Part shown: positions 3,354 through 64,000 of the stretch, one piece after another
How the letters are laid out: each line of letters opens with the position of its first letter
Numbering within the stretch: position 1 is the first letter of the stretch
Origin: Burkholderia pyrrocinia
GTDB lineage: Bacteria; Pseudomonadota; Gammaproteobacteria; Burkholderiales; Burkholderiaceae
Length of the DNA: 64,000 nucleotides
Assembly: GCF_001028665.1 (NCBI RefSeq)
Contig: NZ_CP011503.1
Span: 1,178,001-1,242,000 of the forward strand
Reading direction: 5' to 3'
Made by a program: the position numbers and the translations under genes
The notes under the pieces: model-generated
Database searches by the model: none
What the model was told of the DNA's origin: nothing
The model's input: the letters and a program-made list of their open reading frames with translations, nothing else

Positions 3354-3379
3354 CGCGGCACCCGGCATCCAACGAAAAA

Positions 3380-3412: not shown

Positions 3413-3444
3413 GGCGGGCGCAGCGGCCCGCCGACACCGGCCCG

Positions 3445-6892: not shown

Positions 6893-7058
6893 CGCCACGA
6901 ATCGGCAAGTGTCGCGCACCCGGCCGTCGGTGCGCTCCCGCGGTGATCCTCGCAGCCCACCGCTACCGCACGCGTCCGAGGCGGCGGCAGCCGGCGCGCG
7001 GCCCGACGCCGGCTCCCTCGCGCAAACGGCTTGCCGCGCGAATCCGCGCACGCCCGCC

Positions 7059-7601
7059 TTACTGCCGCACCGGCTTCTTCGCGAGCTTGCGCTGCAGCGT
7101 GCGGCGGTGCATGTTCAGCGCGCGCGCGGTCGCCGAGATGTTGTTGTTGTTCTCCGCGAGCACGCGCTGGATGTGCTCCCATTCGAGCCGGTCGACCGAC
7201 AGCACGACCGGATTCTCGAGCGCCTCGTCGGCCTGCACTTCGGTCGCGTTGGTCTGCAGAGCAGCCAGGATCGACTCGACGTTCGCGGGCTTCGCGAGAT
7301 AGTTGTCGGCGCCTTCCTTCACGGCCTGCACGGCGGTCGCGATGCTCGCGTAGCCGGTCAGCACCAGAATCCGCGCATCGGGCTGCAGGTCGCACAGCGG
7401 CGCGATCAGGCTCAGGCCCGAATCCTCGCCGAGATGCAGGTCGACGGTGATGAACTGGAACTTGCCGCCCGCGGCGAGCCTGAGCGCCGTCTCCTTGTCG
7501 TGCGCCTGCTGGACCGCGTAACCGCGGCGCTCGAGGCCGCGCGCGAGCGTGCCCGCGAACACCTCGTTGTCGTCGATCACCAGGAAATTGTTCTCGCTCA
7601 T
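7059..7601 (-). CDS. regA: redox response regulator of the RegA/PrrA/ActR family
   Basis: A 180-residue response regulator. The receiver domain has the acidic pair D10-D11, phospho-acceptor D54 (in TVDLHL) and K104 (YLAKPA). A short linker leads to a Fis-type helix-turn-helix ending NMHRRTLQRKLAKK, the near-invariant RegA DNA-binding signature. RegA-type regulators are activated by the partner kinase under reducing conditions and control respiration-related genes. ATG at 7601 gives the family length. It starts 13 bases after the kinase stop codon, so the pair is one operon with kinase first. Confidence 0.92.
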   Translation of the reverse strand: MSENNFLVIDDNEVFAGTLARGLERRGYAVQQAHDKETALRLAAGGKFQFITVDLHLGEDSGLSLIAPLCDLQPDARILVLTGYASIATAVQAVKEGADNYLAKPANVESILAALQTNATEVQADEALENPVVLSVDRLEWEHIQRVLAENNNNISATARALNMHRRTLQRKLAKKPVRQ

Positions 7602-7614
7602 GTGGTTTCTCCGT

Positions 7615-9021
7615 CTACGTGTTGGTTGAGGCGGCCGGCGCCGCGACGCGCACGACCGGCAGGCGCAGCACGGCCCGCGTGCCGCGCCCGGCGGTTGTTC
7701 CGGCCGGGCGGCTGTCCGGCATGCCGGCCGTTCGTTCGGTCGTGCGTTGTGCCGACGCGGCAGCGGCGTGGCCATTCGCCGCACCGCCGGCCCGTCCGTT
7801 GCCGCCCGCCGCGCGCGGCGCGACATCGGACAGTTCGATCTCGCCGCCGAGCCGCGCGGCCGCACTGAACGCGAGATACAGGCCGACTCCGTGCCCGCCC
7901 TGCGTGCTGTCGACCGGCATCGCGCCGAGCGATTCGCGCAGCGCGGCCGGAATGCCGGGCCCGTCGTCGCATACCTCGAATTCGATCTCGTCGGCCGCGC
8001 GGTCGTGCTCGACCTTCGCGGCCAGCGTCACGCGCTGCGGGCTCGCGCGCGCGGCGTTGTCGAGCAGGATCGTCAGGATCTGGCCGGCCGCGACCGTGTC
8101 GTCGAGCGCGACGCCCGCCGGACGCGCGCCGAGCAGCTCGAACTGCACGTGCGGATGCCGCAGGCGCCAGTGCTCGACGAACGTGTCGAGCCAGTCGTCC
8201 ACCGGCTGGCGGCTCGCGGGCGCGCTCGCGCGGCTGCGCAGGCGCGCGAGCGCCGACGTGCAGAGCGTCATCTGTTCCTCGAGCACCTTCAGGTCGGCCT
8301 CGTAGCGGGCCAGCCCCGGATCGGCACGCGCCGCGTCGCGCAGCTCCTCGGCGAGCATCGCGATCGTCGACAGCGGCGTGCCCATCTCATGCGCGACGGT
8401 GGCCGCCTGCACGCCGAGCGCGACCGCCCGCTCGTCGCGCAGCAGGTGCTGCTGCGCTTCGCCGAGCGCCGCATCGCGCTGGCGCAGCGCATTCGACATG
8501 CGCGCGACGAACCACGCGATCAGCCCGACGCTGACCATGAAGTTCGCCCACATCCCGGTGCGGTAGTAGTCGAACAGGTTCGCGGGATTATCCATGTTGA
8601 GCGGCACCGAATCGAAGCCGAGCGCCGCGTAGCACGCAACCGCGAACGCCGCGAGCCAGATCATCAGGTGCCACGGCAGCACGGCCGCCGCGATCGCGAG
8701 CGACGGCAGGTACAGCGACACGAACGGGTTGGTCGTGCCGCCCGACAGGAACAGCAGCGCCGACAGCGCACCGAGGTCGACCCACAGCTGGCCGAGCAGC
8801 TCGAAATTGGTCTCGGGCCGCGCGCGCAGCACGCGCACCCAGGTCAGCGCGTTGAAAACGATTTCGAGCGCGATGACCATCAGCATCGCCGGCAACGGCA
8901 GATGCACGCCGAAATAGGTCTGCACGACGCCGATCGTCACGAGCTGGCCAATGATCGCAAGATTGCGAAGCCAGAACAGGTGACTGAGGTTGACGCGCCC
9001 GGTGGTGGTAATTCGTTGCAT
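7615..9021 (-). CDS. regB: redox sensor histidine kinase of the RegB/PrrB family
   Basis: A 468-residue membrane kinase with six predicted membrane segments in the first 180 residues. The quinone-sensing heptapeptide GGTTNPF (residues 94-100) matches the family GGxxNPF. The H-box is VAHEMGTPLSTI with H211, and C254 (in MTLCTSAL) is placed like the redox-active Cys of RegB. The ATPase core shows the N box (LDNAARAS) and G1 box (CDDGPGIP). Unusually, an Ala/Gly/Arg/Thr-rich insert of about 55 residues (roughly 388-445) separates the last core strands before TRAVLRLPVV. It is co-transcribed with regA. Confidence 0.92.
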   Translation of the reverse strand: MQRITTTGRVNLSHLFWLRNLAIIGQLVTIGVVQTYFGVHLPLPAMLMVIALEIVFNALTWVRVLRARPETNFELLGQLWVDLGALSALLFLSGGTTNPFVSLYLPSLAIAAAVLPWHLMIWLAAFAVACYAALGFDSVPLNMDNPANLFDYYRTGMWANFMVSVGLIAWFVARMSNALRQRDAALGEAQQHLLRDERAVALGVQAATVAHEMGTPLSTIAMLAEELRDAARADPGLARYEADLKVLEEQMTLCTSALARLRSRASAPASRQPVDDWLDTFVEHWRLRHPHVQFELLGARPAGVALDDTVAAGQILTILLDNAARASPQRVTLAAKVEHDRAADEIEFEVCDDGPGIPAALRESLGAMPVDSTQGGHGVGLYLAFSAAARLGGEIELSDVAPRAAGGNGRAGGAANGHAAAASAQRTTERTAGMPDSRPAGTTAGRGTRAVLRLPVVRVAAPAASTNT

Positions 9022-51585: not shown

Positions 51586-51640
51586 CGGCCTGGCCGCCGG
51601 GGGGCTTCCCCCGGCGCATCGGGCTGCGGCAGGCACCCAT

Positions 51641-51677
51641 AAAAAAACGCGGATCGATCGCTCGATCCGCGTTTTTT
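51641..51677. terminator. bidirectional terminator between topB and the LysR gene
   Basis: An approximately 11-bp stem (ACGCGGATCGA with TCGATCCGCGT, 4-base loop TCGC) flanked by seven A on the left and six T on the right. Confidence 0.9.
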
Positions 51678-51716
51678 CTTTGTGCCGGCGGCAGCCGCCG
51701 CCCGGCCATCGCGCCG

Positions 51717-52766
51717 TTACAGCGGCGACGGCACCGCAACACGCGTGCGTGTCGAACGCGGCAGGCGCGGCGACAGGTTCGGGTCGGCCGATTCGGGCTG
51801 CTCCGCACGCGTCTCGACGCCGATCGGCGCGAGCGTCGCACCCTGCGCGGCCCACTGCTCGCCGATCGTCGCATCGGTCGCGTGACTGAAATACTCGACG
51901 AGGTGGTCGATGAACGTGCGCACCTTCGCGGGCAAATGGCGCCGGCTCGGGTAAGCGATGTTGATTTCGACCTGCGGCAGCCGGAAATCCGGCAGCAACC
52001 GCACGAGCGCACCGCGCGCGATGTCGCTGCCGATCAGGTAGCTCGGCAGGATCGCGACGCCCATCCCGAGCAGCGCGAACTGGCGCAGCATCGCCGTGTT
52101 GTTCGCGACGATCACGTTGGTCGGGCGCACGCGCACTTCGCCGTCCGGCCCCGTGAACACGCGCTCGTCGCCCCAGTATTCGGCCGGCAGGCTCAGGCTC
52201 GGGTGCGCGACGAGCTGCTCCGGATGGGTCGGCACGCCGTGCTTCTCCAGATAGCTCGGCGTCGCGCACACGGTCATGCAGCCCGTGGTCAGCCGCCGCG
52301 TGACGATGCTCGCGCTACGCATCTGGCGCGTAACGACGATACCGACGTCGAAGCCTTCCTCGACGAGATCGACCTGCCGGTCGACCAGCGTGAGATCCGG
52401 CACCACTTTCGGGAAATTCTCCGTGTACGTCTGCAACACGGGCGCGAGGTTATGCAGGCCGAACACGACCGGCGCGACGATGCGCAGCGTGCCGACCGGC
52501 TCGTGATTGCGCGCGACGACCATCTGCTCGACGTCCTCGAGCTCATCGAGGATCTGGCGAGCACGCTCCAGATAGACCTGACCCGACTCCGTCAGGGAAA
52601 GGCTGCGCGTGGTGCGATTGAGCAAACGCGTGCCGAGCCGGCCTTCCAGATCGGCGACGTGACGCGTCGCGACCGCGTTGGAGATATCCATTGCGCTCGC
52701 GGCCCGCGCGAAACTGCCGAGATCTGCAACCTTGACGAACACGCGCATCGACTGCAAATGATCCAT
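51717..52766 (-). CDS. LysR-family transcriptional regulator
   Basis: A 349-residue regulator: winged helix at residues 1-62 (VKVADLGSFARAASAMDIS, then LNRTTRSLSLTESG), then a periplasmic-binding-like effector domain (GTLRIVAPVVFG). The C-terminal 45 residues are a low-complexity extension after the usual end of the fold. It is divergent from the 2-hydroxyacid dehydrogenase gene, a likely target. Confidence 0.93.
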   Translation of the reverse strand: MDHLQSMRVFVKVADLGSFARAASAMDISNAVATRHVADLEGRLGTRLLNRTTRSLSLTESGQVYLERARQILDELEDVEQMVVARNHEPVGTLRIVAPVVFGLHNLAPVLQTYTENFPKVVPDLTLVDRQVDLVEEGFDVGIVVTRQMRSASIVTRRLTTGCMTVCATPSYLEKHGVPTHPEQLVAHPSLSLPAEYWGDERVFTGPDGEVRVRPTNVIVANNTAMLRQFALLGMGVAILPSYLIGSDIARGALVRLLPDFRLPQVEINIAYPSRRHLPAKVRTFIDHLVEYFSHATDATIGEQWAAQGATLAPIGVETRAEQPESADPNLSPRLPRSTRTRVAVPSPL

Positions 52767-53192
52767 AAACGACTCCTGCCGCTGTTACAACTTCAAAAAG
52801 ATGAAGCAAATGCGTAATTCTCCTACGACAGCGGAAATGATGCAGAGTTGCTCAACAAGGCACCGGTTGACGATAAAAATAGTCAAAAATCCTCGCCTTC
52901 TGCGGATAGTTGATCCAACTATTCTGATTGGAGCAACAATTGGGTGAACCTCGTCGAGTAAGCGGCCGAATCAGGAAGGACGTATTTGATGCGACACAAC
53001 AGCGCACCCTTGCGCACCGCACACGAGCGGCGCCGGGTAAGGCTGCCGCCAATTGCGGCGGAGCGTAACAACCTGTTAAAAAGACACCATGAAGGCGGCC
53101 GACGTAGCATCATGTCGGCCCCGGCCGGGCGGGACGGGTGCGCGACGTGCACCACCGCCACTGCCGCTTTCAACGCGCGACACCCGTTCACC
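52767..53192. other. regulatory region between the LysR gene and the hydroxyacid dehydrogenase
   Basis: About 426 bases, with an AT-rich centre (52870-52950) that should hold the divergent promoters. The open frame of the dehydrogenase continues upstream to 52986 but that part is not family-like. Apart from the dyad at 52906-52922 no clear element was identified. Confidence 0.45.
52906..52922. promoter_or_regulatory. 17-bp dyad, candidate LysR operator
   Basis: ATAGTTG and CAACTAT are perfect inverted arms around the spacer ATC. The dyad is 140 bases upstream of the LysR start codon within the divergent intergenic region, a usual location for LysR binding. Confidence 0.5.
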
Positions 53193-54206
53193 ATGAAAAT
53201 TGCCATCCTCGACGACTACCAGGACGCCGTCCGCAAGCTGAACTGCTTCGAGATGCTTGCCGGCCACGACGTGAAGGTCTTCAACAATACGGTGCGCGGC
53301 CTGGGACAGCTCGCAAGCCGCCTGGCGGAAGTCGAGGCGCTCGTGCTGATTCGTGAACGGACCCCGATTTCGTCGCAACTGCTCGCCAAGCTGCCGAACC
53401 TGCGCATGATCAGCCAGACCGGCCGCGTCTCGAGCCACATCGACCTCGAAGCATGTACCGACCGCGGCATCGCGGTGCTCGAAGGCACGGGTTCGCCGGT
53501 CGCGCCCGCCGAGCTGACCTGGGCGCTCGTGATGGCCGCCCAGCGCCGCATTCCGCAGTACGTCGCGAACCTGAAGCAGGGCGCATGGCAGCAGTCGGGC
53601 CTGAAGACGTCGGCCATGCCGCCGAACTTCGGCCTCGGCCAGGTGCTGCGCGGCCAGACGCTCGGCATCTGGGGCTACGGCAAGATCGGCCGGCTCGTCG
53701 CCGGCTACGGCAAGGCGTTCGGGATGAACGTGCTGATCTGGGGCCGCGAGCATTCGCTCGAAGCCGCACGCGCCGACGGCTACACGGCGGCCGAGAGCCG
53801 CGAGGCGCTGTTCGAGCAGAGCGACGTGCTGTCGCTGCACCTGCGCATGCACGACGACACGCGCGGGATCGTCAAGCAGGAAGACCTGATGCGGATGAAG
53901 CCAACGTCGCTGCTCGTCAACACGAGCCGCGCGGAGCTGCTCGAGGAAAACGCGCTCGTCAACGCGCTGTCGCACAACCGTCCCGGGATGGTCGCGATCG
54001 ACGTGTTCGAGAGCGAGCCGATCCTGCAGGGCTACAGCCTGCTGCGGATGGAGAACGTGATCTGCACGCCGCACATCGGCTATGTCGAACGCGAAAGCTA
54101 CGAGCTCTATTTCAGCGCGGCGTTCAGGAACATCCTCGCGTTCGACGACGGCGACATGTCGAGCGTCGCCAATCCGGAAGCGCTGACGCCGATCCGCAAG
54201 CGCTGA
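53193..54206 (+). CDS. D-2-hydroxyacid dehydrogenase family protein
   Basis: A 337-residue NAD-dependent dehydrogenase. Nucleotide motif GIWGYGKIGRLVAGYG, and catalytic residues Arg in NTSRAELL, Glu in DVFESEP and His in CTPHIGYVE are all present. Family members reduce 2-keto acids such as phosphohydroxypyruvate or hydroxypyruvate; the substrate is not determined. ATG 53193 gives the usual start MKIAILDDYQD. Confidence 0.92.
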   Translation: MKIAILDDYQDAVRKLNCFEMLAGHDVKVFNNTVRGLGQLASRLAEVEALVLIRERTPISSQLLAKLPNLRMISQTGRVSSHIDLEACTDRGIAVLEGTGSPVAPAELTWALVMAAQRRIPQYVANLKQGAWQQSGLKTSAMPPNFGLGQVLRGQTLGIWGYGKIGRLVAGYGKAFGMNVLIWGREHSLEAARADGYTAAESREALFEQSDVLSLHLRMHDDTRGIVKQEDLMRMKPTSLLVNTSRAELLEENALVNALSHNRPGMVAIDVFESEPILQGYSLLRMENVICTPHIGYVERESYELYFSAAFRNILAFDDGDMSSVANPEALTPIRKR

Positions 54207-54258
54207 TCGCGCGGGCTGCGCGCGCCGCGCGGCCCCGCTGCTGCTCCATTCCCCGCCA

Positions 54259-55125
54259 TCAGGCGGCCACGCGGCCGCCTGTCATTGCATCGACGCGCGT
54301 GAGGAAGTGCTCGCCGTCGCGCCGCCCGAGGTCGTACGCATGCCGCATCTGCGACGGGCTCGTGTAATCCCAGCTCGAAATCGGCACCTTGCTCGACGGC
54401 TGTACGTACAGCCGCCGCTGGTCGCCGTGCGCGACCGTGAACATCTGCGGACGCGGATACAGCCGCGTGACGAGCACCAGCACGTCGCCCGGCGACGGGT
54501 CGAGCGCGTCGACCGGCACGTTGTCGACCATCCCGCCATCGAGCACGGGCCGGCCGCCGCGGCGCAGCACCGGCGTGAACGGCGGCGTGCAGGACGACTG
54601 CAGGATCAGGTCGGCGAGTTCGTCGACTTGCGTGCAGGCCTGCGCGCGCACGAATTCAGGCCGAAAGCCGAGCGTGCGCCCGAGCGTCGGGTGCAGCGTC
54701 TTGCGCACGTATTTCTCGATGTTGTACGCGACGAGGCCGGCCGCGACCGCGCTGCGCGCGCCGAGCCAGCGCGGCACGTGCGACACGCCGATGCGGATCT
54801 CCGGCGCCGCGGCGAGCTTCGCGAACGGCTCGCCGTAGATGTCGAGCAATGCCTGACGGTAGATGCGGTAATGCGGAAACACGGGCTCGCGCCCGAACAG
54901 GTTGCCCCAGTACGCGTTCTTCCGGTTGTGGCGCAGCGCCTCTTCGTAATAGCGCATCACCCACGCGGCGTCGCGCGTATACAGCATGCAGGCGGTCGCC
55001 GCGCCGGCCGAGATGCCGGTGATCACGCGCGGGCGCAGCCCGAGGGCCGGCTGCGCGACGTCCCAGAAGCCGGCCTGCCACCAGCAGCGATTGCCGCCAC
55101 CCGCAAAGACGATCTGGTCGAACAT
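54259..55125 (-). CDS. patatin-like phospholipase
   Basis: A 288-residue patatin-fold lipase. Oxyanion hole AGGGNR (8-13), nucleophile GISAG with S39, and dyad Asp in LDGGMVDN (D196). No signal peptide; probably cytoplasmic or associated with the inner membrane. It begins 8 bases after the thioesterase stop, so the two are one operon, suggesting lipid turnover. Confidence 0.88.
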   Translation of the reverse strand: MFDQIVFAGGGNRCWWQAGFWDVAQPALGLRPRVITGISAGAATACMLYTRDAAWVMRYYEEALRHNRKNAYWGNLFGREPVFPHYRIYRQALLDIYGEPFAKLAAAPEIRIGVSHVPRWLGARSAVAAGLVAYNIEKYVRKTLHPTLGRTLGFRPEFVRAQACTQVDELADLILQSSCTPPFTPVLRRGGRPVLDGGMVDNVPVDALDPSPGDVLVLVTRLYPRPQMFTVAHGDQRRLYVQPSSKVPISSWDYTSPSQMRHAYDLGRRDGEHFLTRVDAMTGGRVAA

Positions 55126-55133
55126 CGCGCCGC

Positions 55134-55538
55134 TCAGCTGACGAGTGCGTAGGTCGACGTCGCGTGGACGGCCATCTTGCCGTCCTCGTCGAACAGTTCG
55201 ACTTCGCCGAACACGAGGTTGCGGCCCATCCGCAGCACGCGCGCGGTGACGTGCACGTCGCCCTTGCGCACGGGGCGCATGAAGTTCGTGTTCAGCGACA
55301 CGGTCGTCATCGGCCGGAACTCGCCGAGCGCGGCCGAGATCGCGACCACCATCGCGGTGTCGGCGGCCGCCGTGAACACTTGGCCGCAGATCACGCCGCC
55401 CGAATGGCGGAATTCGCCGGAAAACGGCAGGCGCAGCGTGACGCTGTCGTCGCCGATCGATACGGGAACCAGACCGAGCGAGCGGACCCATGGGGCCAGC
55501 AGGCGATCCAGCAATTCGCGGACTGCGTTTTCGTCCAT
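55134..55538 (-). CDS. PaaI-family hotdog thioesterase
   Basis: A 134-residue hotdog-fold protein with FRHSGGVICGQVFTAAADTA (active-site region, Asp as base) and TTVSLNTNFMRPVRKGDV. Acyl-CoA thioesterase of unknown specificity. It is the first gene of a two-gene unit with the patatin gene. Confidence 0.87.
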   Translation of the reverse strand: MDENAVRELLDRLLAPWVRSLGLVPVSIGDDSVTLRLPFSGEFRHSGGVICGQVFTAAADTAMVVAISAALGEFRPMTTVSLNTNFMRPVRKGDVHVTARVLRMGRNLVFGEVELFDEDGKMAVHATSTYALVS

Positions 55539-55686
55539 CTTCGAATGTCCAGAAAACGTTGCGCGACCGCCGCGCAACGCGTGTGGCGTCATCATACCGG
55601 GAGCGCGCAAACTGCGACCGCTCGTTACCGCGGCGACAGCCGCCGTTGGCGTGACGAAATATTTTCGAGAAATTTGCACAAAGGGC

Positions 55687-55715
55687 TTGCCATGCCCCTT
55701 AAACGCGTGCATAAT
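55687..55715 (+). promoter_or_regulatory. sigma-70 promoter of tRNA-Lys
   Basis: TTGCCA (55687-55692), 17 bases, CATAAT (55710-55715). The -10 ends 13 bases before the tRNA. Confidence 0.75.
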
Positions 55716-55728
55716 CTTTCTTCTGTTG

Positions 55729-55804
55729 GGGGCGTTAGCTCAGTTGGTAGAGCAGCGGACTCTTAATCCGTAGGTCGAGTGTTCGAGTCACTCACGCCCC
55801 ACCA
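55729..55804 (+). tRNA. tRNA-Lys (CTT), integration site of the island
   Basis: A 76-base cloverleaf with encoded CCA. Acceptor stem GGGGCGT/ACGCCCC. Anticodon stem GCGGA/TCCGT with loop CTCTTAA gives anticodon CTT, and T loop is TTCGAGT. Its 3' 45 bases are part of a 52-bp direct repeat found again at 61704-61755. Confidence 0.96.
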
Positions 55805-55811
55805 GGAATTC
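55760..55811 (+). repeat. attL-like direct repeat (52 bp), tRNA side
   Basis: Begins CTCTTAATCCG in the tRNA anticodon loop and ends GGAATTC just after the CCA. It is identical at all 52 positions to 61704-61755. Confidence 0.93.
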
Positions 55812-55813
55812 CG

Positions 55814-55848
55814 AAGCCCGGTTAGCGAAAGCTAACCGGGCTTTTTCT
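55814..55848 (+). terminator. island-borne replacement terminator for tRNA-Lys
   Basis: A 13-bp perfect stem (55814-55826 with 55831-55843), loop GAAA, followed by TTTCTTT. It is inside the element, but its layout closely mimics the chromosomal hairpin at 61758-61792. Confidence 0.88.
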
Positions 55849-55971
55849 TTTCTCCGGGTCATTTCCGGTCACTCCTAGCCATCAATCACCCAGTGGATTC
55901 TTGAGCGATTCGCCAGAAAGCCTCAGAATCACAAGCTGACCGAGGTGCTGTAGCGAGGAGGAATGCATTCA

Positions 55972-57306
55972 ATGCGGGGCACTAGACGAAACATGGAGAT
56001 TCGCAGATTTGACCAAGTAGTGATATCGAATCCCAAACGCTATGTGGACCGATCAAGCGCACAAGATGCGCGCATCTTCCCCTATTACGCCGGCTACTCA
56101 ACCGCCTTCACGGAACAATTGCTCCTGTCGCTTGGCCTCCAAGGCGACAGTATGGTTTTCGATCCATGGAACGGAAGTGGTACAACCACGCAGACCGCGT
56201 ACCGGGCGGGTATGCCCTGCATCGGCACGGACTTGAATCCGGTAATGGTCGTTGTGGCCAAGGCCGGTCTTCTCTCCGCTCTTGATGCCGAGAGTCTTCC
56301 TCCGCTTGCCCAGACAATAGTTGAGCAAGCCGCACAGCGGCAAACAGAAGACCTCTCCGATGATCCTCTGCACACTTGGATGATCCCTCAGAGTGCGGCG
56401 GCAATTCGTGGATTGGAACAAGAAATCCACCGCATACTCGTGTCCCACGCTGAGTATCGTCCGCTTACCTCAGAGGACACCCTAGCGTCTATCTCCCCGC
56501 TCGCGGCCTTTTTTTACGTCGCGTTGTTCCGAACTGCGCGCCGTCACTTGATCGACTTCATTCCGTCCAACCCTACTTGGACAAAGCGACCAAGCTCACC
56601 AGCCCATCGCAAGCGCCCGACTTCGGATAAGATTTACAAAGCTTTCGCTGAGGATGTTCAACTCCTCTCCCGCAAGGTTACAGAAGCTCGCACGCTCTTT
56701 TTTGATGACGCTAGCCCCGCCTCTGTCCGCCTCGGAAATGCCGAAGCGATTGGCTTGCAGACCAATTCTGTCGGCGCAGTCATTTCTTCGCCCCCTTATT
56801 GCACCCGCATCGACTATGCCGTCGCCACGGCCATCGAGCTGGCGGTTCTGCGAATGGGTGGCGGCGACTTCGACACCCTACGACGCAGCCTCACCGGCAC
56901 CTCAACTGTCCAGCGCGACAACCAAGAGGTTGATCCGCAATGGGGTGAGACGTGTGTCGATTTCCTGGATGCGCTGTATCAGCATTCGTCAAAGGCATCC
57001 AAAACCTACTACTTCAAGAACCACGTTCAGTACTTTCACTCCTTGCATGCATCTCTCCAGGAGATTGCTCGGGTACTCGAACCGCAGGCCCCCTGCGTGC
57101 TCGTCGTCCAAGACTCCTACTACAAGCAGATACGGAACGACATAGCGCAGATAACCTGCGAAATGGCGGAAAATGTTGGTCTTCAGTTGCGTAGGCAAGA
57201 GCACTTCTCTGCGACACGCTCTATGGTCGGGGTAAACAAAAAAGCGAAAATATATCTACAGAATCGGACTAATGTAGAAAGCGTTCTGTGTTTTGAAAAT
57301 TCTTGA
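55972..57306 (+). CDS. DNA methyltransferase (N6/N4 amino type), island copy 1
   Basis: A 444-residue SAM-dependent DNA methyltransferase. SAM-binding motif I is VFDPWNGSGTT at residues 62-72 followed by GTDLNP; catalytic motif IV is SSPPYCTRIDY (272-282), the S/D-PPY form of enzymes acting on exocyclic amino groups. About 200 residues lie between the two motifs. The C-terminal part has VLVVQDSYYKQ. AGGAGG at 55956-55961 fits ATG 55972 (10-base spacing) better than ATG 55963 (1 base). It is followed 10 bases later by the DUF262 gene. Target sequence is unknown. No restriction endonuclease of a classical type is adjacent. Confidence 0.85.
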   Translation: MRGTRRNMEIRRFDQVVISNPKRYVDRSSAQDARIFPYYAGYSTAFTEQLLLSLGLQGDSMVFDPWNGSGTTTQTAYRAGMPCIGTDLNPVMVVVAKAGLLSALDAESLPPLAQTIVEQAAQRQTEDLSDDPLHTWMIPQSAAAIRGLEQEIHRILVSHAEYRPLTSEDTLASISPLAAFFYVALFRTARRHLIDFIPSNPTWTKRPSSPAHRKRPTSDKIYKAFAEDVQLLSRKVTEARTLFFDDASPASVRLGNAEAIGLQTNSVGAVISSPPYCTRIDYAVATAIELAVLRMGGGDFDTLRRSLTGTSTVQRDNQEVDPQWGETCVDFLDALYQHSSKASKTYYFKNHVQYFHSLHASLQEIARVLEPQAPCVLVVQDSYYKQIRNDIAQITCEMAENVGLQLRRQEHFSATRSMVGVNKKAKIYLQNRTNVESVLCFENS

Positions 57307-57316
57307 GAGAACTGAT

Positions 57317-58471
57317 ATGGATGATAAACGGGGGGCCCAAGCAGTCGTCGATCTGATTCAGGAAGTTGATGCTCAACTAAAAAACGTACACACGCAAAGT
57401 CTCGACATTTCATTTAACGAGCTTGCCGACATGGTATCGACCAAAGAATTGGATATTAGTCCAGACTACCAGCGACTGTTCCAATGGTCGGAGGGCGCTC
57501 GATCGAGATTTATTGAGTCGCTCCTCCTCGAAATGCCGGTCCCGCCTCTTTATGTTGTCGAAGAGGAAAATAATCAGAAATTACTGATCGATGGTCTCCA
57601 GCGAATTTCGTCCTACCTCCATTTTCGAGGCATGCTGACGGCGACGCACCTACGTCCTCAAGTCAATATCGGCGACAAGCTTGTTTTGCAAGATTGCGAT
57701 ATCCTTCCGCAACTCAATGGAAAGACATTTGACGATCTAGGAACTGCTCTACAAATTAAGCTCAAGCGATCGTTCGTTCGCGTAGAGGTAGTACGAAAAG
57801 GCAGCAACCCGAAATTCAAGTATCATATGTTCAAGCGATTGAACACGGGAGGCGAAAGCTTAACAAATCAGCAGCTCCGCAATTGCACAATTCGCCTACT
57901 GGACGCGAAGTTTAATGATTTCGTCAACTCTCTCGCAGATCAAAATGACGATTTCTGCAGTTGCACGAGCACGATCTCCGAACAAGATCGCCATGGTGCA
58001 TACGATCGAGAACTAGTACTGAGATTCTTTGCCTTTAAGAATTGGCGTACGAAATTCAAACATGACGTCGCTGATTTTCTCACCGAGTATATGGAAGCTG
58101 TTGCGGATCCGGAACATCCCGAGCCCTTCGACTACGAGGCGGAGCGGAAGACTTTCGAGCGAACGTTCAAGATACTCAATCTCGCACTAGGTGAGCAGGC
58201 TTTCAGCCGTGCAAATCGAACAAGAACTGATTTGATTGCCGGGTTTGGGATTTACCAATATGAAGCCTTCACGCTTGGTATCCAATCACACCTGACCTCC
58301 ATCGACATCGATACGGAAGATGGTATCGCAAAAATTCGTGGAATTTTCCTCGCAATCAAACTTAATGAAGAATTTGTCGACATAACTACCGGCGGAGGGA
58401 AAAATAGCCCCGGACCATTCAACCAAAGAGTGGACTTCGTAACCAACCAACTATCCGCCGAGTACGTATGA
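57317..58471 (+). CDS. DUF262-domain protein, island copy 1
   Basis: A 384-residue DUF262 protein. The domain (GmrS/ParB-like nucleotide-dependent module) shows LDISPDYQRLFQWSEGAR (46-63), then LLIDGLQRISSY, where the canonical DGQQR is DGLQR (92-96), and FKRLNTGGESLTNQQLRNC. There is no DUF1524 HNH domain at the C-terminus; instead a helical region. DUF262 proteins occur in GmrSD, SspE and other DNA-modification-sensing defence systems. ATG 57317 follows GAGAGA. It overlaps the HEPN gene by ATGA at 58468. Confidence 0.85.
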   Translation: MDDKRGAQAVVDLIQEVDAQLKNVHTQSLDISFNELADMVSTKELDISPDYQRLFQWSEGARSRFIESLLLEMPVPPLYVVEEENNQKLLIDGLQRISSYLHFRGMLTATHLRPQVNIGDKLVLQDCDILPQLNGKTFDDLGTALQIKLKRSFVRVEVVRKGSNPKFKYHMFKRLNTGGESLTNQQLRNCTIRLLDAKFNDFVNSLADQNDDFCSCTSTISEQDRHGAYDRELVLRFFAFKNWRTKFKHDVADFLTEYMEAVADPEHPEPFDYEAERKTFERTFKILNLALGEQAFSRANRTRTDLIAGFGIYQYEAFTLGIQSHLTSIDIDTEDGIAKIRGIFLAIKLNEEFVDITTGGGKNSPGPFNQRVDFVTNQLSAEYV

Positions 58472-58963
58472 AAATTGACGTACTTCGGGCCAAAATGGAA
58501 GAGGATCTCGCGCGGCGAATCGAAGACATCCGTTTCTCTCAGAGCACATGCGCTAGCGTTGATTCTGACGCTGCGCAACAACGCTTTCTAAAGGCATTAA
58601 TCGTCCTTTTATACGCTAATCCTGAAGGATTCGCTAGATTTGTTTTTCGGCACCTACGTTTCTGCTATTAATGCAGAAGCCGTAGCTTGCCAAGGTGCAG
58701 ACTTCGCTATTGCCGAAGCCTTCTTATCCGACGTCTTTCGCTATCTGCACGACGGTAATAGCCGAGCACCCGGCTACAAGAAGCTCAAGCTGCCGGACGA
58801 TACACAGTTAGAGAAGTTTGCTCGTGACCGAGAATTTTTGTCGCAGGCGTTGGAGTTGATGCAAAGACCCGTGACTATTCCCGATAAGGTTACAAGTACG
58901 GAACCCTACATGGCTAAAGACACCAAAATCCGACGAGGCAAAGCTGCCAGTTCCAGCAAATGA
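58468..58963 (+). pseudogene. HEPN protein of MAE_28990/MAE_18760 type, frameshifted and truncated
   Basis: The first frame encodes MKIDVLRAKMEEDLARRIED and then ALIVLLYANPEGFARFVF before a stop at 58671; the continuation (GTYVSAINAEAVACQG, later PVTIPDKVTSTEP) is in another frame up to 58963. Removing one T from the TTTTT run at about 58643-58647 restores one continuous frame and gives the family feature LLYAxxEGFxxFxxxxYVxxIN. The C-terminal half, which should carry the R-x4-6-H catalytic motif, is missing because the sequence changes to methyltransferase-like after about 58905. ATG 58468 overlaps the DUF262 stop. A sequencing error or programmed slippage are alternatives to a true frameshift. 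Confidence 0.78.
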
Positions 58964-59648
58964 AATATGCGCTGCTTTCGCCGACCAAGCGAAGCGTATG
59001 GCAGATACGTTGCAAACATCTAGTTTTTTGATCGATCCAGCTCGGGTCAAAATCGCGGTTGGCAATACCACTGAATTTAAAGAAAAAGCGCCGACGGATT
59101 TTACTTTGACTTCTCCGTCGTACTGCACAAGAATCGACTATATAGCAGTGATTCGGGCGGAGTTAGCTCCAGCAAATAGCTCACTGAACGAGGATCGTGA
59201 CTACCTTAGCAAGAAAATGATTGACTCCATTAAACTGCCGGTCGATACGATGCAACCCTCTATATTCTGGAGCGAAACTTGCCTTGGCTTTTCTGGACAA
59301 ACTCAGGTCACACGACTCGAAAGCATCCACGATGCCATTATTGCAAGACGCACCTCAATTATTTCGACAAAATATCAAAGTCGATTTATAATATTCGGAC
59401 CAGCATGAAGAAGAATGCGATGGCTATTTTGGCGACACAAGACTCTTATCATAAAGATTTACATAACGACGTGCCGACGATTCTGACTGAAATGGCAGAA
59501 AATGTTGGATTTGAGATGCGAAGACGAAGAGATTTTGTTCAGGGGAACTCATTTCCCGGAATCAATTCGCGATCCAGAATGTACAGAGACACCTCTCGAC
59601 TGGTTGAGCCGGTGATTTATTTTTTAAAAATAGAGGAATATAAAACCT
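58914..59648 (+). pseudogene. remnant of a second methyltransferase gene
   Basis: Fragments in at least two frames align with the C-terminal half of the island methyltransferase: DPARVKIAVGN matches ASPASVRLGN, TSPSYCTRIDY matches SSPPYCTRIDY, CLAFLDKLRSHDSKAS (59282 onward, another frame) matches CVDFLDALYQHSSKAS, and LATQDSYHKDLHNDVPTI matches VVQDSYYKQIRNDIAQI. The SAM-binding half is absent and the catalytic PPY is PSY. It is therefore non-functional. The 5' boundary is approximate; the 3' end abuts the second DUF262 gene. Confidence 0.82.
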
Positions 59649-60698
59649 ATGAAAGCCAACGCATCGCCAATGTCAGTCGCGGATTATTGCAACGCCCTTC
59701 AAGAAAAGAAGATTATTGTCAACTCCGATTATCAGCGCAAGGATGGGCTATGGACTGCGCCGGCGAGATCCTTCTTCATTGAGTCTATATTACTCGAATA
59801 TCCAATTCCAAAATTGTTTGTCTATGCTAAGTTGGACTTAAAAACAAAGGGCGTGATTAAGGAAATCGTCGATGGGCAACAGCGTAGCCAGGCGCTTATG
59901 CTGTTCTATGAAAATAAGTTAACCTTGTCGAAGAATCTCGAGACCGAGGAGCTTCGAGGGATGCGCTACAACAAACTTTCCGAAGAATGGCAGACTAAAT
60001 TTCTTTCTTATCAGCTGCCAGTCGATCAATTTTCCGGAGTGCCCGAGAATGAAGTGAGAGAAGCTTTCCGGCGAATGAATGCCAACAACGTCCCGTTGAA
60101 TGCGGAGGAGCAACGAAACGCACGCTATCAAGGCGACTTTAAATGGTTTATCAATGGTCTCGCGGAAATATTCAAGGAGTCGTTGCTCAGCATTGGCGTT
60201 CTATCTCGTCGCGACATGATTCGCATGACCGACCTGCGACTCTACGCGGAGATCGTTCTTACTATGGACGAGGGCTTCGTAACGGTAAAAGGGGCGCAGC
60301 TCGATCGTATTTACAAAAAATACAATGCTGGGTTCGAGCAGGCTGATGATCTGAACGAAAAAATAAAATATGGGATCGAGTTTGTTTTGCAACACGAAGT
60401 TTTGCATGAGGATGTGCTTCTTCGAATGCATGTCTTCCAATCTCTTGTGCTTGCTGCAATTGCCGTTCGCTTCGGCGGCGACTTCAGTGATAAAGCAGAA
60501 CTGGATCATGAAGAAATGTGTGCCGAAATTGTCGCGCACGATTTCCCCGTTGAGACGCTGATAGCCTCTTTGCAAGATCCGGAAGATTTTCCAGCGTTGA
60601 CGAAATTTGTAGGTGCGAGTTCAGAGGCAACCAACACGGGCGCTGCACGCGCAATTCGATTTTTATATTTCAAACAGGCACTTAAGAACTTGGTCTGA
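59649..60698 (+). CDS. DUF262-domain protein, island copy 2
   Basis: A 349-residue DUF262 protein with the canonical motif VDGQQRSQALMLFY (DGQQR 75-79), an upstream VNSDYQRKDGLW and a later FRRMNANNVPLNAEEQRNARY. It differs strongly from copy 1, so the duplication is old or the two copies came separately. No nuclease motif is visible beyond the domain. Its reading frame is intact and it is followed after 5 bases by the HEPN-like gene. Confidence 0.87.
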   Translation: MKANASPMSVADYCNALQEKKIIVNSDYQRKDGLWTAPARSFFIESILLEYPIPKLFVYAKLDLKTKGVIKEIVDGQQRSQALMLFYENKLTLSKNLETEELRGMRYNKLSEEWQTKFLSYQLPVDQFSGVPENEVREAFRRMNANNVPLNAEEQRNARYQGDFKWFINGLAEIFKESLLSIGVLSRRDMIRMTDLRLYAEIVLTMDEGFVTVKGAQLDRIYKKYNAGFEQADDLNEKIKYGIEFVLQHEVLHEDVLLRMHVFQSLVLAAIAVRFGGDFSDKAELDHEEMCAEIVAHDFPVETLIASLQDPEDFPALTKFVGASSEATNTGAARAIRFLYFKQALKNLV

Positions 60699-60703
60699 TT
60701 ATT

Positions 60704-61354
60704 ATGCGCGCGTCAATGCATTTGGGGCGCCTGCATAGTGCCGCCCAATATCGGATTAAACGGTTAAGCGATCTTTTTAAATCTATTCCCGGGCTCAGCC
60801 CGGAGGAAAGGGGAAGGAGACTTTCGTATATTGCGATCGAGTTGGATAATTTAAATATATGTGCGCTTAGAGAATTCACCATAAGCACCATCCGGAAAGC
60901 AAAAACGCTTTCTGGGGTAAAGGTTTCGGTATCCTTAAACATCGGTCCGGAAGACGAGATTGCAGCTTACATGCTGTCCGTAACGAATAGTGTGAAATAT
61001 GCGAAAATGCACTCGCCGGCTCGCATAAAGCGCAGCGACGAGCAAGCTATTCGCGACCCGAAGCAAATCGAGAAAATTTTGATTGCTTGTTCCGCAAGCA
61101 ATTTACCGTCCTTGCAGAACGCCCTGGCGCTCAACTCGAGCATGTTTCGCGACTTAAAGTTTGTTCGTCATTTTTATGCCCATAGAAACCAAGACACTTT
61201 CGGTAAAGCCGCGACAAACGCGGCAAGCTTGGGGGTATTAAACCTTGATCATCCAGATAAGATTCTTCTGCACGTCATGAGTGGTAAAACTCACTCGGTA
61301 ATCGAGGAATGGTTGGCAGATGCAACGATTTTTTACGACTATCTAATGCAATAA
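60704..61354 (+). CDS. putative HEPN-type protein, island copy 2
   Basis: A 216-residue mostly helical protein not similar to the HEPN-1 remnant by eye. In its last third it has FRDLKFVRHFYAHRNQDTF; R155-x4-H160 matches the R-x4-6-H signature of HEPN ribonucleases. The position after DUF262 equals that of HEPN-1 in copy 1, which supports the assignment. It may be a nuclease effector or a HEPN-like RNA-binding protein. The start is ATG 60704, 5 bases after the DUF262 stop. Confidence 0.65.
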   Translation: MRASMHLGRLHSAAQYRIKRLSDLFKSIPGLSPEERGRRLSYIAIELDNLNICALREFTISTIRKAKTLSGVKVSVSLNIGPEDEIAAYMLSVTNSVKYAKMHSPARIKRSDEQAIRDPKQIEKILIACSASNLPSLQNALALNSSMFRDLKFVRHFYAHRNQDTFGKAATNAASLGVLNLDHPDKILLHVMSGKTHSVIEEWLADATIFYDYLMQ

Positions 61355-61703
61355 ATGACCTGTTTGCGCCGATGACGCGCACGAGTGGCACGCCGCCCGA
61401 AATACATTTAGGGTACCTCCCGTAAATGCAAAAGATCGCATCGGCCGCGGCGGACTTCCCCTGCATTTCCTTCATCGAACGTGTTCGAGATACCCGCTTT
61501 GTCCGGTCCTTCGCCGGTCGGGGGCACCCAATTTCGGCGTTCGAACGGGCAATGAGCACATCAAGCCAACTCGCAAAACGGCTGAATATCCACCGGAGAA
61601 CCGTGCCGCCGTTTGCATCAGGACTTCCACCACCTGCCAAGGCGCGAACCTCTGTCCCCTATAATTCCTTGCAGTAATATGCCCCTTATTTTTGCCTTAC
61701 GTT
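61355..61703. other. island right end without a supported gene
   Basis: About 350 bases between the last island gene and attR. Short frames on both strands (83 and 121 codons) show no integrase or other family feature. It could hold att-flanking binding sites or the remains of a lost integrase gene; neither can be shown here. Confidence 0.45.
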
Positions 61704-61755
61704 CTCTTAATCCGTAGGTCGAGTGTTCGAGTCACTCACGCCCCACCAGGAATTC
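61704..61755 (+). repeat. attR-like direct repeat (52 bp), distal end
   Basis: Identical to the 3' part of tRNA-Lys plus seven flanking bases (55760-55811). It lacks the 5' half of the tRNA, so it is not a second tRNA gene. Confidence 0.93.
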
Positions 61756-61757
61756 AA

Positions 61758-61792
61758 AAGGCCGGTCAGCGCAAGCTGACCGGCCTTTTTCA
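61758..61792 (+). terminator. original chromosomal terminator of tRNA-Lys
   Basis: A 13-bp stem (61758-61770 with 61775-61787), loop GCAA, then TTTTTCATTT. It follows the distal repeat exactly where a tRNA terminator would be before integration. Confidence 0.88.
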
Positions 61793-62079
61793 TTTCCGCG
61801 CGCCACGCTCGTGGCACGTCTCCTCTCGCAGTACGCATCCGTACGCCCCTTCCGCATCGTTTCCGCTAGAATCGTCCGACAAATATCACACGACCGGCTC
61901 AGGCACTGCCGCTTGCCCGCCGGCACTGAGAGAACATGGGACGTCAGACATGGAAGCATGTGAACGAGACGCGACCATTCAGAGGGCATGGTTGCGCCGA
62001 TATCGGCCTGTCCGTCGGGACACGCCACTCACCCGATCGCACCCGCATCCGCCGCGCGGCGCACGAACCGGATCCGGTC

Positions 62080-62985
62080 ATGCCGGGTAAGGACGCACTC
62101 GCCGCGCTGGCGCTCGGCGTCGTGCTGCTCGTGCTGGCAGGCGTGCTTGCCGTCACGACCGGCCGCGCGACCGGCCACCTGGTCCGCGCGCCGGGCACGG
62201 TCGTGCGCATCGTGCAGGACAGCGACGCGATGCGCACGTACCGGCCGATCGTCGCCTACCTCGCGAACGACGGCCAGCGCCGCGAAATCGCCGGCAATAC
62301 CGCCTCGACCGTCCCCGCGTACGACATCGGCGAGAACGTCGATATCTTGCTGGACCCGACCCATCCCGACCGCCCCGCGCTGATCGACGATTTCGCGCAA
62401 CGCTGGTTCCCGGCCGCGGTGCCGGCGCTGCTCGCCATCGCGTCGTTCGCGATCGGCGGCCTGCTGATCGCCGGCGAGCGCCGCCGCCGGCAATCCGACC
62501 CGCCGCCGACCCGCACCGCAAGCAAGCAGGCGCGGCGCCGCTGGGATATCGCGATCGTGCTGATTCCGATTGCGATCGGTACAGGCTTCCTCGCCGGCGC
62601 CGGCGCGACCGGCCTGCGTCAGTGGCAGATCGTCCGCCACTACGCACACTCGACTGGCCACGTCGTCGAGATCGCGAAAAACGCGCGGTCGCCCCGGGCA
62701 CGCATGTCGCTGTATTCGGCGATCGTCGCTTTCACGACCGACAGCGGCCGCCAGATCACGTTCGCGCAGGGATCGGCGTCGTCGCATCCGGGCCTGCATG
62801 AAGGCGAAGCGGTCAACGTGCTGTACGACCCCGTCACACCCGAGCGCGCGGTCGTCGACCGCTTCTGGGATCGCTGGGGCCTCACGGCCATCCTGTTCGC
62901 GATCGGCGCACCGTTCCTCGCGGCCGGACTGTTCGTCGCCGCGACGCTGTGGCCGGACCATCGCCCGCACGAAACCGCTCGATGA
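62080..62985 (+). CDS. DUF3592 membrane protein
   Basis: A 301-residue protein with hydrophobic segments at its N-terminus (GVVLLVLAGVLAV), middle (ALLAIASFAIGGLLIA; IVLIPIAIGTGFLAG) and C-terminus, and two DUF3592-type beta domains (YRPIVAYLANDGQRREI and YSAIVAFTTDSGRQITF, each followed by a VDILLDPTHPDR / VNVLYDPVTPER motif). The repeated motif shows internal duplication. Function unknown. ATG 62080 was chosen; an in-frame ATG at 61936 is possible but its extra 48 residues are not membrane-like. The 324 bases upstream (from 61756) otherwise hold only the tRNA terminator. Confidence 0.75.
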   Translation: MPGKDALAALALGVVLLVLAGVLAVTTGRATGHLVRAPGTVVRIVQDSDAMRTYRPIVAYLANDGQRREIAGNTASTVPAYDIGENVDILLDPTHPDRPALIDDFAQRWFPAAVPALLAIASFAIGGLLIAGERRRRQSDPPPTRTASKQARRRWDIAIVLIPIAIGTGFLAGAGATGLRQWQIVRHYAHSTGHVVEIAKNARSPRARMSLYSAIVAFTTDSGRQITFAQGSASSHPGLHEGEAVNVLYDPVTPERAVVDRFWDRWGLTAILFAIGAPFLAAGLFVAATLWPDHRPHETAR

Positions 62986-63034
62986 CGATCGCGCGCCGGC
63001 CGCGCGCGGTGCGGCGGCCGTAACGGCACGCGCT

Positions 63035-63649
63035 TCACCGTTCCCTGAACGCCTCCACCTTCGCGCGATTCCCGCACGTGCGCATGTCGCACCAGCGCCG
63101 CCCGACGCCACGGCCGCGATCGACGAAGAACCACGTGCAACGGCCGCACTGCCGCACGCGTGCGAAATCGTCGCTGCGCAGCAGATGCTCGAAGCCGAGC
63201 GCCGCCGCATCGATCCAGCGCGACGCGGCGCGCGCATCGGGCCGCCACGCGAACCGGCCGTCGACCGCGTCGAACGCGCTGCGCCCGATCGCATCGCGGA
63301 TCGCGACGGCGAGCCGGTCCGCCGCGCGCGCACCGGCGCTGCCGCCGCCTCCGGCCGTCAGGTGCGCGATCGCAACGTATGCATCCTCGCGAAAGCGATG
63401 CAGCGCCGCCAGTTCGTCCGGGCCGTCCTGGCGCGCATGACGCAGAAGCCGTGCCAGATCGGCCGGCGCCAGCAATCCCACCTTCTCGGCCCACGCGCGC
63501 ACGGCCGGCCAGTCGACGAGCTTGTCCTCGTCGCGCGTCTTGCCCGTATCGGCCACCGTGTTGAGGAAGTCGAGCGCCGGATGGCCGCCGACGAAATCGG
63601 CCGCGCCCCATTCGCGCGCGTGCCGCGCATGCTCGTGTCGAGTAACCAT
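63035..63649 (-). CDS. CGNR zinc-finger transcriptional regulator (ABATE domain)
   Basis: A 204-residue regulator with an N-terminal ABATE ligand-sensing domain (GHPALDFLNTVADTGK) and a C-terminal CGNR zinc finger: CGRCTWFFVD and RWCDMRTCGNRAK. Such regulators usually sense a stress or metabolite and control adjacent genes. It is divergent from the alpha/beta hydrolase gene. Confidence 0.9.
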   Translation of the reverse strand: MVTRHEHARHAREWGAADFVGGHPALDFLNTVADTGKTRDEDKLVDWPAVRAWAEKVGLLAPADLARLLRHARQDGPDELAALHRFREDAYVAIAHLTAGGGGSAGARAADRLAVAIRDAIGRSAFDAVDGRFAWRPDARAASRWIDAAALGFEHLLRSDDFARVRQCGRCTWFFVDRGRGVGRRWCDMRTCGNRAKVEAFRER

Positions 63650-63689
63650 TTATTTGCACCTATCGGTTTCAAGTCCGGACAATCCGGCG

Positions 63690-63716
63690 TAACCTGTTAA
63701 CAGCAAAAACAGGTTA
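63690..63716. promoter_or_regulatory. inverted repeat, candidate CGNR operator
   Basis: TAACCTGTT (63690-63698) and AACAGGTTA (63708-63716) are perfect 9-base arms with a 9-base spacer. It is 14 bases upstream of the hydrolase ATG and 41 bases from the regulator start, so binding could block transcription of one or both genes. Confidence 0.6.
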
Positions 63717-63730
63717 GCACGGAGAAGCCG

Positions 63731-64000
63731 ATGCTCGAACTCGCCAACCGCTTCATGTTCGAAGGTCACCGGATCGCGTGGGGAACGCTCGGTGAAGGCC
63801 CGCCGCTCGTGCTCGTGCACGGCACGCCGTTTTCATCGCAGGTGTGGCGCCGGATCGCGCCGTGGCTCGCGCGGCGTCATCGCGTGTACTTCTACGACCT
63901 GCTCGGCTATGGCCAGTCCGACATGCCGGACGCGGACGTATCGCTCGGCAGGCAGAACGTGCTGTTCGGCGCGATGCTGCGCGAATGGGCGCTCGAGCGC
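63731..64000 (+). CDS. alpha/beta hydrolase, N-terminal part (cut by window end)
   Basis: The first 90 residues of an alpha/beta hydrolase. LVLVHGTPFSSQVWRRI is the HG oxyanion region and YFYDLLGYGQSDMP the following strand with Asp/Gly-x-Ser. The nucleophile elbow is outside the window. GGAGA precedes ATG 63731. Confidence 0.88.
   Translation, partial: MLELANRFMFEGHRIAWGTLGEGPPLVLVHGTPFSSQVWRRIAPWLARRHRVYFYDLLGYGQSDMPDADVSLGRQNVLFGAMLREWALER

Follow-up and report, generated by a model that had tools for sequence, protein, structure and literature searches.

A tRNA-Lys island of Burkholderia pyrrocinia with two decayed methyltransferase-DUF262-HEPN modules of a conserved type

The closest described systems

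The three components discussed here have been listed together before. In Table 1 of Anantharaman et al. 2013 (PMC3710099), MAE_28990 HEPN genes appear "in operon with a ParB nuclease and DNA methylase genes," the same three components as in the modules of our island; the family includes the first HEPN of the island and its intact relatives, of which the HEPN of P. corrugata locus L020 scores 110 bits to PF18737 and 111 bits to PF18735. That operon occupies one table line, with no second HEPN family, clade-wise coupling or composite island in it. PD-T4-2, which blocks T4 in E. coli (Vassallo et al. 2022, PMC9519451), is composed of a DUF262 protein and a HEPN (PF18735) protein (PMC10952713) and thus resembles the core of the island; unlike the island modules, it comes with no methyltransferase in the portions of these two papers that describe it. 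A sequence-only reading of the island had mentioned a link between MAE_28990 HEPN proteins and DUF262 from comparative genomics, which the 2013 table bears out. Its further suggestion that such a three-gene system seems not to be described has to be narrowed in view of that table and of the protection that PD-T4-2 gives against T4: as far as the open-licence literature was searched, what is new is a second HEPN family, a clade-wise coupling with methyltransferases, and the complementary decay of two modules.

The DUF262 proteins also recall the Type IV restriction enzymes GmrSD and BrxU, with which they share the GmrSD_N domain, the [IV]DGxQR motif and a BrxU-like fold; however, no DUF1524/HNH nuclease (GmrD) domain was matched by Pfam in the 8 island ORFs scanned, and the corresponding place is taken by a separate HEPN gene. 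The pairing of a DNA methyltransferase with a putative self/non-self effector is reminiscent of Type II restriction-modification, but the effector is here a predicted RNase, and Pfam and NCBIfam detected no restriction endonuclease in the 8 ORFs other than the GmrSD_N domain, within which PADLOC also places a weak REase_II match (29 and 28 bits). Among PADLOC models, NsnA scores best against both DUF262 proteins (195 bits for number 1, 116 bits for number 2), above PD-T4-2_A (137 and 48 bits). NsnA was not found in the open-licence literature, and this catalogued system may already cover the DUF262-HEPN core. The intact L020 HEPN has no PADLOC PD-T4-2_B match at E 0.1, in a library that may lack that model.

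The island and its two incomplete modules

The window, a stretch of 64,000 nucleotides of the B. pyrrocinia contig NZ_CP011503.1, contains an island of about 5.9 kb with low G+C, bounded by a 52-bp repeat of a tRNA-Lys 3' end (Table 1). In 15 of the 19 relatives examined the site is empty, with the left flank, the full tRNA-Lys and the right flank contiguous. No integrase candidate was found by a Pfam scan of the 8 island ORFs or by a crude motif search of window positions 50001-64000. The island is a tRNA-Lys-inserted element that holds a conserved methyltransferase-DUF262-HEPN module twice, both times in degenerate form. The sequence-only reading had seen two successive gene sets in the same order; the order is real, but neither set is complete, HEPN 1 and methyltransferase 2 being broken. 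Its account of the first set holds in the coupling of the genes: the ATG of DUF262 number 1 (57317) follows the methyltransferase stop after a 10-base gap, and the DUF262 stop overlaps the next start at 58468 (ATGA). Methyltransferase 1 is likewise confirmed as a gene, with its start placed at 55963 instead of 55972, another in-frame ATG. Module 1 has the whole MAE_28990 HEPN-ParB-methylase triad in order, its HEPN being a remnant.

Table 1. Features of the island and its insertion site (window positions)
Feature	Position	Strand	Evidence or remark
tRNA-Lys (CTT)	55729..55804	+	ARAGORN; 3' part is the island insertion site
Left copy, 52-bp exact direct repeat (tRNA-Lys 3' end)	55760..55811		
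Right copy, 52-bp direct repeat	61704..61755		
Methyltransferase 1, intact	55963..57306	+	N6_N4_Mtase PF01555, E 8.6e-10
DUF262 number 1 (GmrSD_N, ParB/Srx NTPase type, motif IDGLQR)	57317..58471	+	PF03235, 79.1 bits
HEPN 1 remnant (MAE_28990 type)	58468..58901	+	PF18737, 22.9 bits; tblastn with intact relatives
Methyltransferase 2 remnant, C-terminal half only	58902..59629	+	two-frame match to L018 methyltransferase
DUF262 number 2 (motif VDGQQR), intact	59649..60698	+	GmrSD_N, 68.8 bits
HEPN 2, 216 aa, R155-x4-H160, predicted RNase effector	60704..61354	+	

Methyltransferase 1 carries the motifs DPWNGSGTTT and SSPPYCTRIDY. We take SPPY to be the rule for DNA cytosine-N4 methyltransferases, and the protein is likely, judging from its motifs, to be one. 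The genome has no second intact member of its family, other matches reaching at most 29 bits (5 of 19 candidates scored); phage records gave no match, and a PDB sequence search returned nothing useful for methyltransferase 1, DUF262 number 1 or the intact L020 HEPN. The methyltransferase 2 remnant, which opens at 58902, lacks everything before the equivalent of residue 189 in the P. polaris protein, and its reading frame shifts somewhere between about 59282 and 59336. Where the 24 methyltransferases compared (methyltransferase 1 and 23 relatives) all have SPPY, the remnant has SPSY. These frames, the truncation and the SPSY change rule out set 2 as a second intact copy. Against residues 189-430 of the L018 methyltransferase, the remnant is 62-63% identical in amino acids over two frames and 74.7% in nucleotides, and its changes fall mostly on third codon positions (16.7/14.2/44.8%); methyltransferase 2 therefore died recently.

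HEPN 1 is split over two frames near 58647. Its match to intact relatives ends, in the three that align furthest, at residue 145-152 of 225-229, and the C-terminal third with R179-x4-H184 is therefore missing; the R-x4-H is kept in 9 of 9 intact relatives, and the PF18737 score of the remnant lies below the cut-off of 26.8 bits. An assembly error may account for the frameshifts in HEPN 1 and methyltransferase 2; it gives no explanation for the truncations.

The prediction of HEPN-type third genes stands for the second module, the first retaining only a remnant. HEPN 2 has no Pfam HEPN match, and Imm5, its only match, was dropped as an identification at E 0.16. R155 and H160 are present in at least 90% of 59 aligned rows and conform to the R-x4-6-H active-site motif of the HEPN superfamily; from this conserved R155-x4-H160 and the fold rank, we regard it as a probable HEPN-type protein whose family has no Pfam match. 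The family is rare, since the window's own copy was the only one in 369 genomes of the class and one of two in 399 genomes of the order; plasmids gave no match.

Both DUF262 proteins are well above the GmrSD_N cut-off of 33.2 bits. A single-chain model of DUF262 number 2 resembles BrxU residues 1-411 (BrxU-like fold over residues 3-342, rmsd 11.2) and leaves the C-terminal nuclease part of BrxU unmatched. Among 32 DUF262 proteins chosen for the test, [IVL]DGxQR is kept in all, and the nuclease motif DH[IVLF][YFW]P occurs in none. An NTP motif with no nuclease domain, next to the R-x4-H of HEPN, fits a sensor plus an RNase. The ParB-fold protein could instead be a DNA nuclease itself, with HEPN as a back-up suicide RNase, as the wording "ParB nuclease" in the 2013 table suggests and as the mention of nicking ParB/Srx proteins in PMC12839542 would allow; the missing motif, the unaligned BrxU part and the lack of any Pfam nuclease domain beyond GmrSD_N in either protein make this quite improbable.

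Recurrence of the triad and its coupling with methyltransferases

The same gene order recurs elsewhere, more than by chance. Of 15 viral loci retrieved with the methyltransferase, 11 have it (two others run into contig ends, and in the last two the methyltransferase has neither DUF262 nor HEPN beside it). So do 7 of the 9 genomic loci retrieved with HEPN 2, among them L020, where the methyltransferase heads an adjoining type-1 module, and the two Roseomonas plasmid regions that we read (three records matched over 96% at 39%). The MAE_28990-type triad is intact in L020, Roseomonas plasmid locus L146 and viral loci. The three families thus co-occur in order, mobile DNA included, as the sequence-only reading had expected. 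In the Roseomonas plasmid copy L147, a frameshifted methyltransferase lies beside intact DUF262 and HEPN genes, which is either a sequencing error or a counterexample to licensing by methylation.

Presence on viral contigs, on plasmids and in a tRNA island, together with a methyltransferase that comes first in the triads (L105 excepted), would suit an addiction module, in which a cell that loses the methyltransferase is killed by the HEPN toxin and the island or prophage is thereby retained, phage defence being secondary, as with restriction-modification genes. The machinery would be the same as in the restriction-modification-like scheme that we favor, and the two roles are not separated here; with the related PD-T4-2 being a defence system, we give addiction little credence as the main role.

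On a 46-row DUF262 tree, the methyltransferase family of the island is found in 11 of 11 rows of the D1 clade, 9 of which came from methyltransferase-seeded searches, and in 8 of 8 rows of the D2 clade, 6 with their own and 2 as composites with a type-1 neighbour. These two, the window and P. corrugata L020, are the D2-clade loci without their own methyltransferase, and both adjoin a type-1 methyltransferase. Presence of the methyltransferase requires 5 changes on the tree; shuffled data averaged 15.6, and none of the 500 shuffles came as low as 5. A check not seeded with the methyltransferase, with profiles built from methyltransferase-seeded rows and viral searches sharing contigs, gave the same picture: 9 of 23 HEPN1-seeded viral loci have the methyltransferase, all with DUF262 scores of at least 579 bits, and none of the 14 with scores of 442 bits or less; DUF262-1-seeded loci (9 of 17) divide likewise. 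A D2-seeded viral search found it in 2 of 17 loci, with a weak match of 37 bits in one more, and a HEPN2 match in 7 of 17, the rest being distant DUF262 proteins. DUF262-HEPN forms the core, joined by this methyltransferase family in two separate DUF262 clades.

Pairs lacking the island family cannot be taken as methyltransferase-free, since 7 of 42 such loci have a DNA methyltransferase of another class close by (ORFs of at least 150 aa, in a span that starts 2.5 kb upstream of DUF262 and ends 3.5 kb downstream; for 6 of the 42 the upstream sequence was shorter than 1.5 kb). Two of these enzymes, an Eco57I-type one in L100 and a C5 one in L101, lie directly before DUF262; three of the seven are on the opposite strand behind HEPN and may be unrelated neighbours. 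Among 20 whole-genome PF18737 genes with an adjacent DUF262, 2 have the island family and 5 a methyltransferase of another class, and a motif search found none beside the remaining 13; therefore, the core can work without a methyltransferase in cis. The methyltransferase diverges faster than DUF262 (53% vs 75%, L018/L019), which is awkward if both must read one site, and the methyltransferase of the type-1 plasmid module L146 groups with type-2 methyltransferases (100/99), as if exchanged between module types.

A proposed mechanism for the island

We propose that the island module works in the manner of restriction-modification but with an effector predicted to cut RNA, not DNA, and that methyltransferase 1 covers both modules here, a reading to which we give nearly even weight. 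The methyltransferase, an enzyme class assigned from sequence, would mark a host DNA sequence, probably with N4-methylcytosine. DUF262, a ParB/BrxU-type NTPase in which no nuclease domain is recognisable, would survey DNA and be set off by unmarked incoming sites. It would then release the HEPN protein encoded directly behind it, whose R-x4-H, as in the HEPN superfamily, would cut RNA and stop the infected cell. With HEPN 1 and methyltransferase 2 broken, DUF262 number 2 and HEPN 2 are the sole effector arm left, and methyltransferase 1, as the only intact family member found in the genome, would protect against them: each copy lacks a different gene, and there would be one working system only if both were combined. 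Phage defence, methylation and RNA cleavage are thus predicted functions of this locus. The earlier reading as modifier, sensor and RNase agrees with the co-occurrence of the families and with their motifs, but not in taking the tandem for two working copies. Counted against the proposal are that known relatives read modification, that no methyltransferase was found with the core in many pairs, and that methyltransferase and DUF262 evolve at unequal rates.

The first of these objections points to a Type IV-like scheme, in which DUF262 reads a modified phage base and frees the HEPN RNase, and the methyltransferase supplies or tunes a docking mark, as in the phosphorothioate-sensing SspE or DndI systems. 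The DUF262 relatives GmrSD, BrxU and SspE are described in PMC10952713 as reading modified DNA, not its absence. However, the island methyltransferase family is present in every row of two separate clades and other classes recur beside other pairs, and a sensor triggered by the mark of its own partner would attack the host unless the mark keeps the sensor off; we consider such sensing unlikely. The island may also be a relic in which nothing works, as 2 of 6 genes are broken. Four genes are nevertheless open and full length, dN/dS against P. polaris is at most 0.1 for DUF262 number 2 (0.035/0.560) and HEPN 2 (0.040/0.419), and amino acid changes show no clear excess on the window branch (4 vs 3; 2 vs 1; 23 further sites ambiguous), so that a relic seems improbable. 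Because methyltransferase 2 died recently, these low ratios are no sign of selection after its loss.

Beyond this locus, we tentatively suggest, as a possibility somewhat short of even, an RNA-cutting form of restriction-modification: methylation would license the host, a nuclease-less ParB/BrxU-type NTPase would detect the unmethylated site, and a HEPN RNase, in place of a restriction enzyme, would shut the cell down. DNA methyltransferases would have joined each of the unrelated DUF262-HEPN chassis, among them one whose HEPN family is new to Pfam, and the methyltransferase of one module could protect against the RNase of another. If this is true, self/non-self DNA marking, so far mainly tied to DNA cutting, also controls an RNA-cutting response, and DUF262 proteins can be divided into methyltransferase-linked and methyltransferase-free sensors for direct comparison. 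Cross-protection between modules becomes a testable question through the two composite loci, in the island and in P. corrugata.

Decay of two modules in a tRNA-bounded island

Both modules noticed in the sequence-only reading lie in a 5.9-kb island, the stretch between a tRNA-Lys gene and the distal copy of a 52-bp repeat, whose genes and remnants have a G+C content of 44-54% versus 66% for the window; no integrase was seen in it. Module 1 retains an intact methyltransferase 1 (PF01555) and, after a gap of 10 bases, an intact DUF262-1 (PF03235), whose stop overlaps the start of HEPN 1. The latter begins as a MAE_28990-type HEPN and shifts frame near 58647; its match to intact relatives ends at residue 145-152, upstream of the R-x4-H motif that 9/9 of those relatives keep. 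In module 2, DUF262-2 and HEPN 2 are intact, and methyltransferase 2 is a C-terminal half with frame changes and SPSY replacing SPPY. Therefore, with HEPN 1 broken in one module and methyltransferase 2 in the other, complementary parts have been lost, a pattern that might reflect one deletion spanning HEPN 1 into methyltransferase 2.

The right flank had some match in 64/65 genus genomes; 20 loci were retrieved, one being the window itself. Left flank, full tRNA and right flank run uninterrupted in 15 of the 19 compared, and in the remaining four an insertion of other DNA means that the flank follows just the terminal 45-48 bases of the tRNA. These insertions (L110-L113) mark the site as a hotspot of the genus among the 19 relatives examined; their tRNA repeats are 45-49 bp long, and three measure about 1.8, 13.8 and 15.0 kb.

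Coordinates and gene arrangements in the window and at comparison loci (L numbers)
Locus	Feature	Position	Arrangement
Window	tRNA-Lys (CTT) gene	55729-55804	
Window	tRNA-Lys (CTT) insertion site	55729-55811	
Window	exact 52-bp repeat of tRNA-Lys 3' end, left	55760-55811	
Window	same repeat, right	61704-61755	
Window	methyltransferase 2 remnant	from 58902	
L020, Pseudomonas corrugata	two modules	2497-7651	intact methyltransferase-DUF262-1-HEPN1, then DUF262-2-HEPN2 without own methyltransferase
L025, Poribacteria MAG	DUF262-HEPN2 pair	5931-7645	no methyltransferase
L059, Escherichia phage vB_EcoM-689R6	DUF262-2-like gene and 216-aa gene with weak HEPN2 match (16.7 bits)	5001-6712	between phage integrase and isocitrate dehydrogenase gene
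L147, Roseomonas mucosa TT14 plasmid	frameshifted methyltransferase, intact DUF262 and HEPN	4995-8110	
L100	994-aa Eco57I-type methyltransferase, HSDR_N match (position includes the pair)	899-5677	directly before DUF262 of a DUF262-HEPN pair
L101	C5 methyltransferase (position includes the pair)	165-3027	directly before DUF262 of a DUF262-HEPN pair
L045	N6_N4 type, 34 bits to methyltransferase 1 family		behind HEPN
L044	C5 type		further behind HEPN
L099, L212, L213	N6_Mtase types		behind HEPN, opposite strand

Association of the three families

The profile of the HEPN 2 family found 9 loci in GTDB species contigs, with DUF262 directly upstream in all 9 (partial in L021, at a contig end) and a methyltransferase in 7, L025 having none and L021 not being scorable. 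Among the 7, that of L020 is the head of the adjoining intact type-1 module; no methyltransferase remnant was detectable in the 383-bp gap between the L020 modules. We take the genes flanking the L025 pair to be trpD- and trpC-like, and at L059 no methyltransferase was found. All 17 loci found with the DUF262-1 profile carry HEPN, and 9 of them the methyltransferase; the profile of DUF262-2 (clade D2) also gave 17 loci, in viral contigs, 7 with HEPN2 and 2 with the methyltransferase. In viral contigs, the methyltransferase profile found 15 loci: 11 triads, 2 cut and 2 without DUF262 or HEPN, counts that include the near-identical pairs L156/L157 and L154/L159, and L152 on the contig of L038. 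The HEPN1 profile found 23 viral loci, with DUF262 upstream in 23/23 and this methyltransferase family in 9/23; 3 of the 14 without it have <1.3 kb of upstream sequence.

In whole genomes, PF18737 occurs at 9 places in 8/399 order genomes and at 14 in 14/398 phylum genomes. DUF262 adjoins it in 9/9 and 11/14, respectively, the three exceptions all scoring under the Pfam cut-off, and this methyltransferase family is at 2/23 places (L046, L105). Some methyltransferase match occurs in 123 of 300 order genomes, mostly weak; the two places >500 bits (the window and genome G184) both adjoin DUF262-HEPN. Among plasmids, 12 records match the methyltransferase, 3 of them Roseomonas (over 96% at 39%). 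Both Roseomonas plasmid regions read carry the triad, with the methyltransferase frameshifted in one, TT14, and whole in strain AD1.

On the 46-row DUF262 tree, this methyltransferase family accompanies 11/11 rows of the DUF262-1 clade, D1, 8/8 of D2 and 4/27 others (plus 1 weak), proportions that are not frequencies, since methyltransferase-seeded searches supplied 9/11 of the D1 rows. For the D2 rows of the window and L020, the positive score comes from the type-1 neighbour; rows whose methyltransferase is of another class (L044, L099-L101) score negative. The label requires 5 changes versus a shuffled mean of 15.6, and 0/500 shuffles were that low. Pairs lacking this family surround the D1 clade on the unrooted tree, so the family probably joined DUF262-HEPN more than once. 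On the methyltransferase tree, types 1 and 2 are mixed at least once (L146).

Proposed mechanism and known relatives

What is observed is the content and conserved order of the genes, their motifs, the resemblance in fold, the coupling by clade and the decay; around this, we tentatively prefer a mechanism of methylation-licensed RNA cleavage: the methyltransferase would set a DNA mark, unmethylated DNA would be sensed, and the HEPN protein would then be released to act on RNA, with methyltransferase 1 cross-protecting in the island. Since it is modified DNA that the known relatives of DUF262 recognise, and since no methyltransferase is seen with many DUF262-HEPN pairs, modification-dependent sensing is the strongest rival, although we consider it rather unlikely.

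MAE_28990 is listed as "In operon with a ParB nuclease and DNA methylase genes" in an entry of Anantharaman et al. 2013 (PMC3710099). Deletion of PD-T4-2, described in part of PMC10952713 as DUF262 plus HEPN, from its native strain increased T4 plaquing, according to a passage of Vassallo et al. 2022 (PMC9519451), and sections of PMC12839542 cover other HEPN-methyltransferase systems. No experimental description of the three genes together turned up in the literature searched. The PADLOC NsnA model, however, fits DUF262-1 and DUF262-2 better than PD-T4-2_A does, and its source was not traced in that literature; any claim of novelty is therefore tempered.

A motif search of the 42 loci without this methyltransferase family showed no other DNA methyltransferase in 35 and one nearby in 7, namely L044, L045, L099-L101, L212 and L213. 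Such varied methyltransferase chemistries next to one DUF262-HEPN core fit a self-marking role, as in the licensing mechanism that we prefer.
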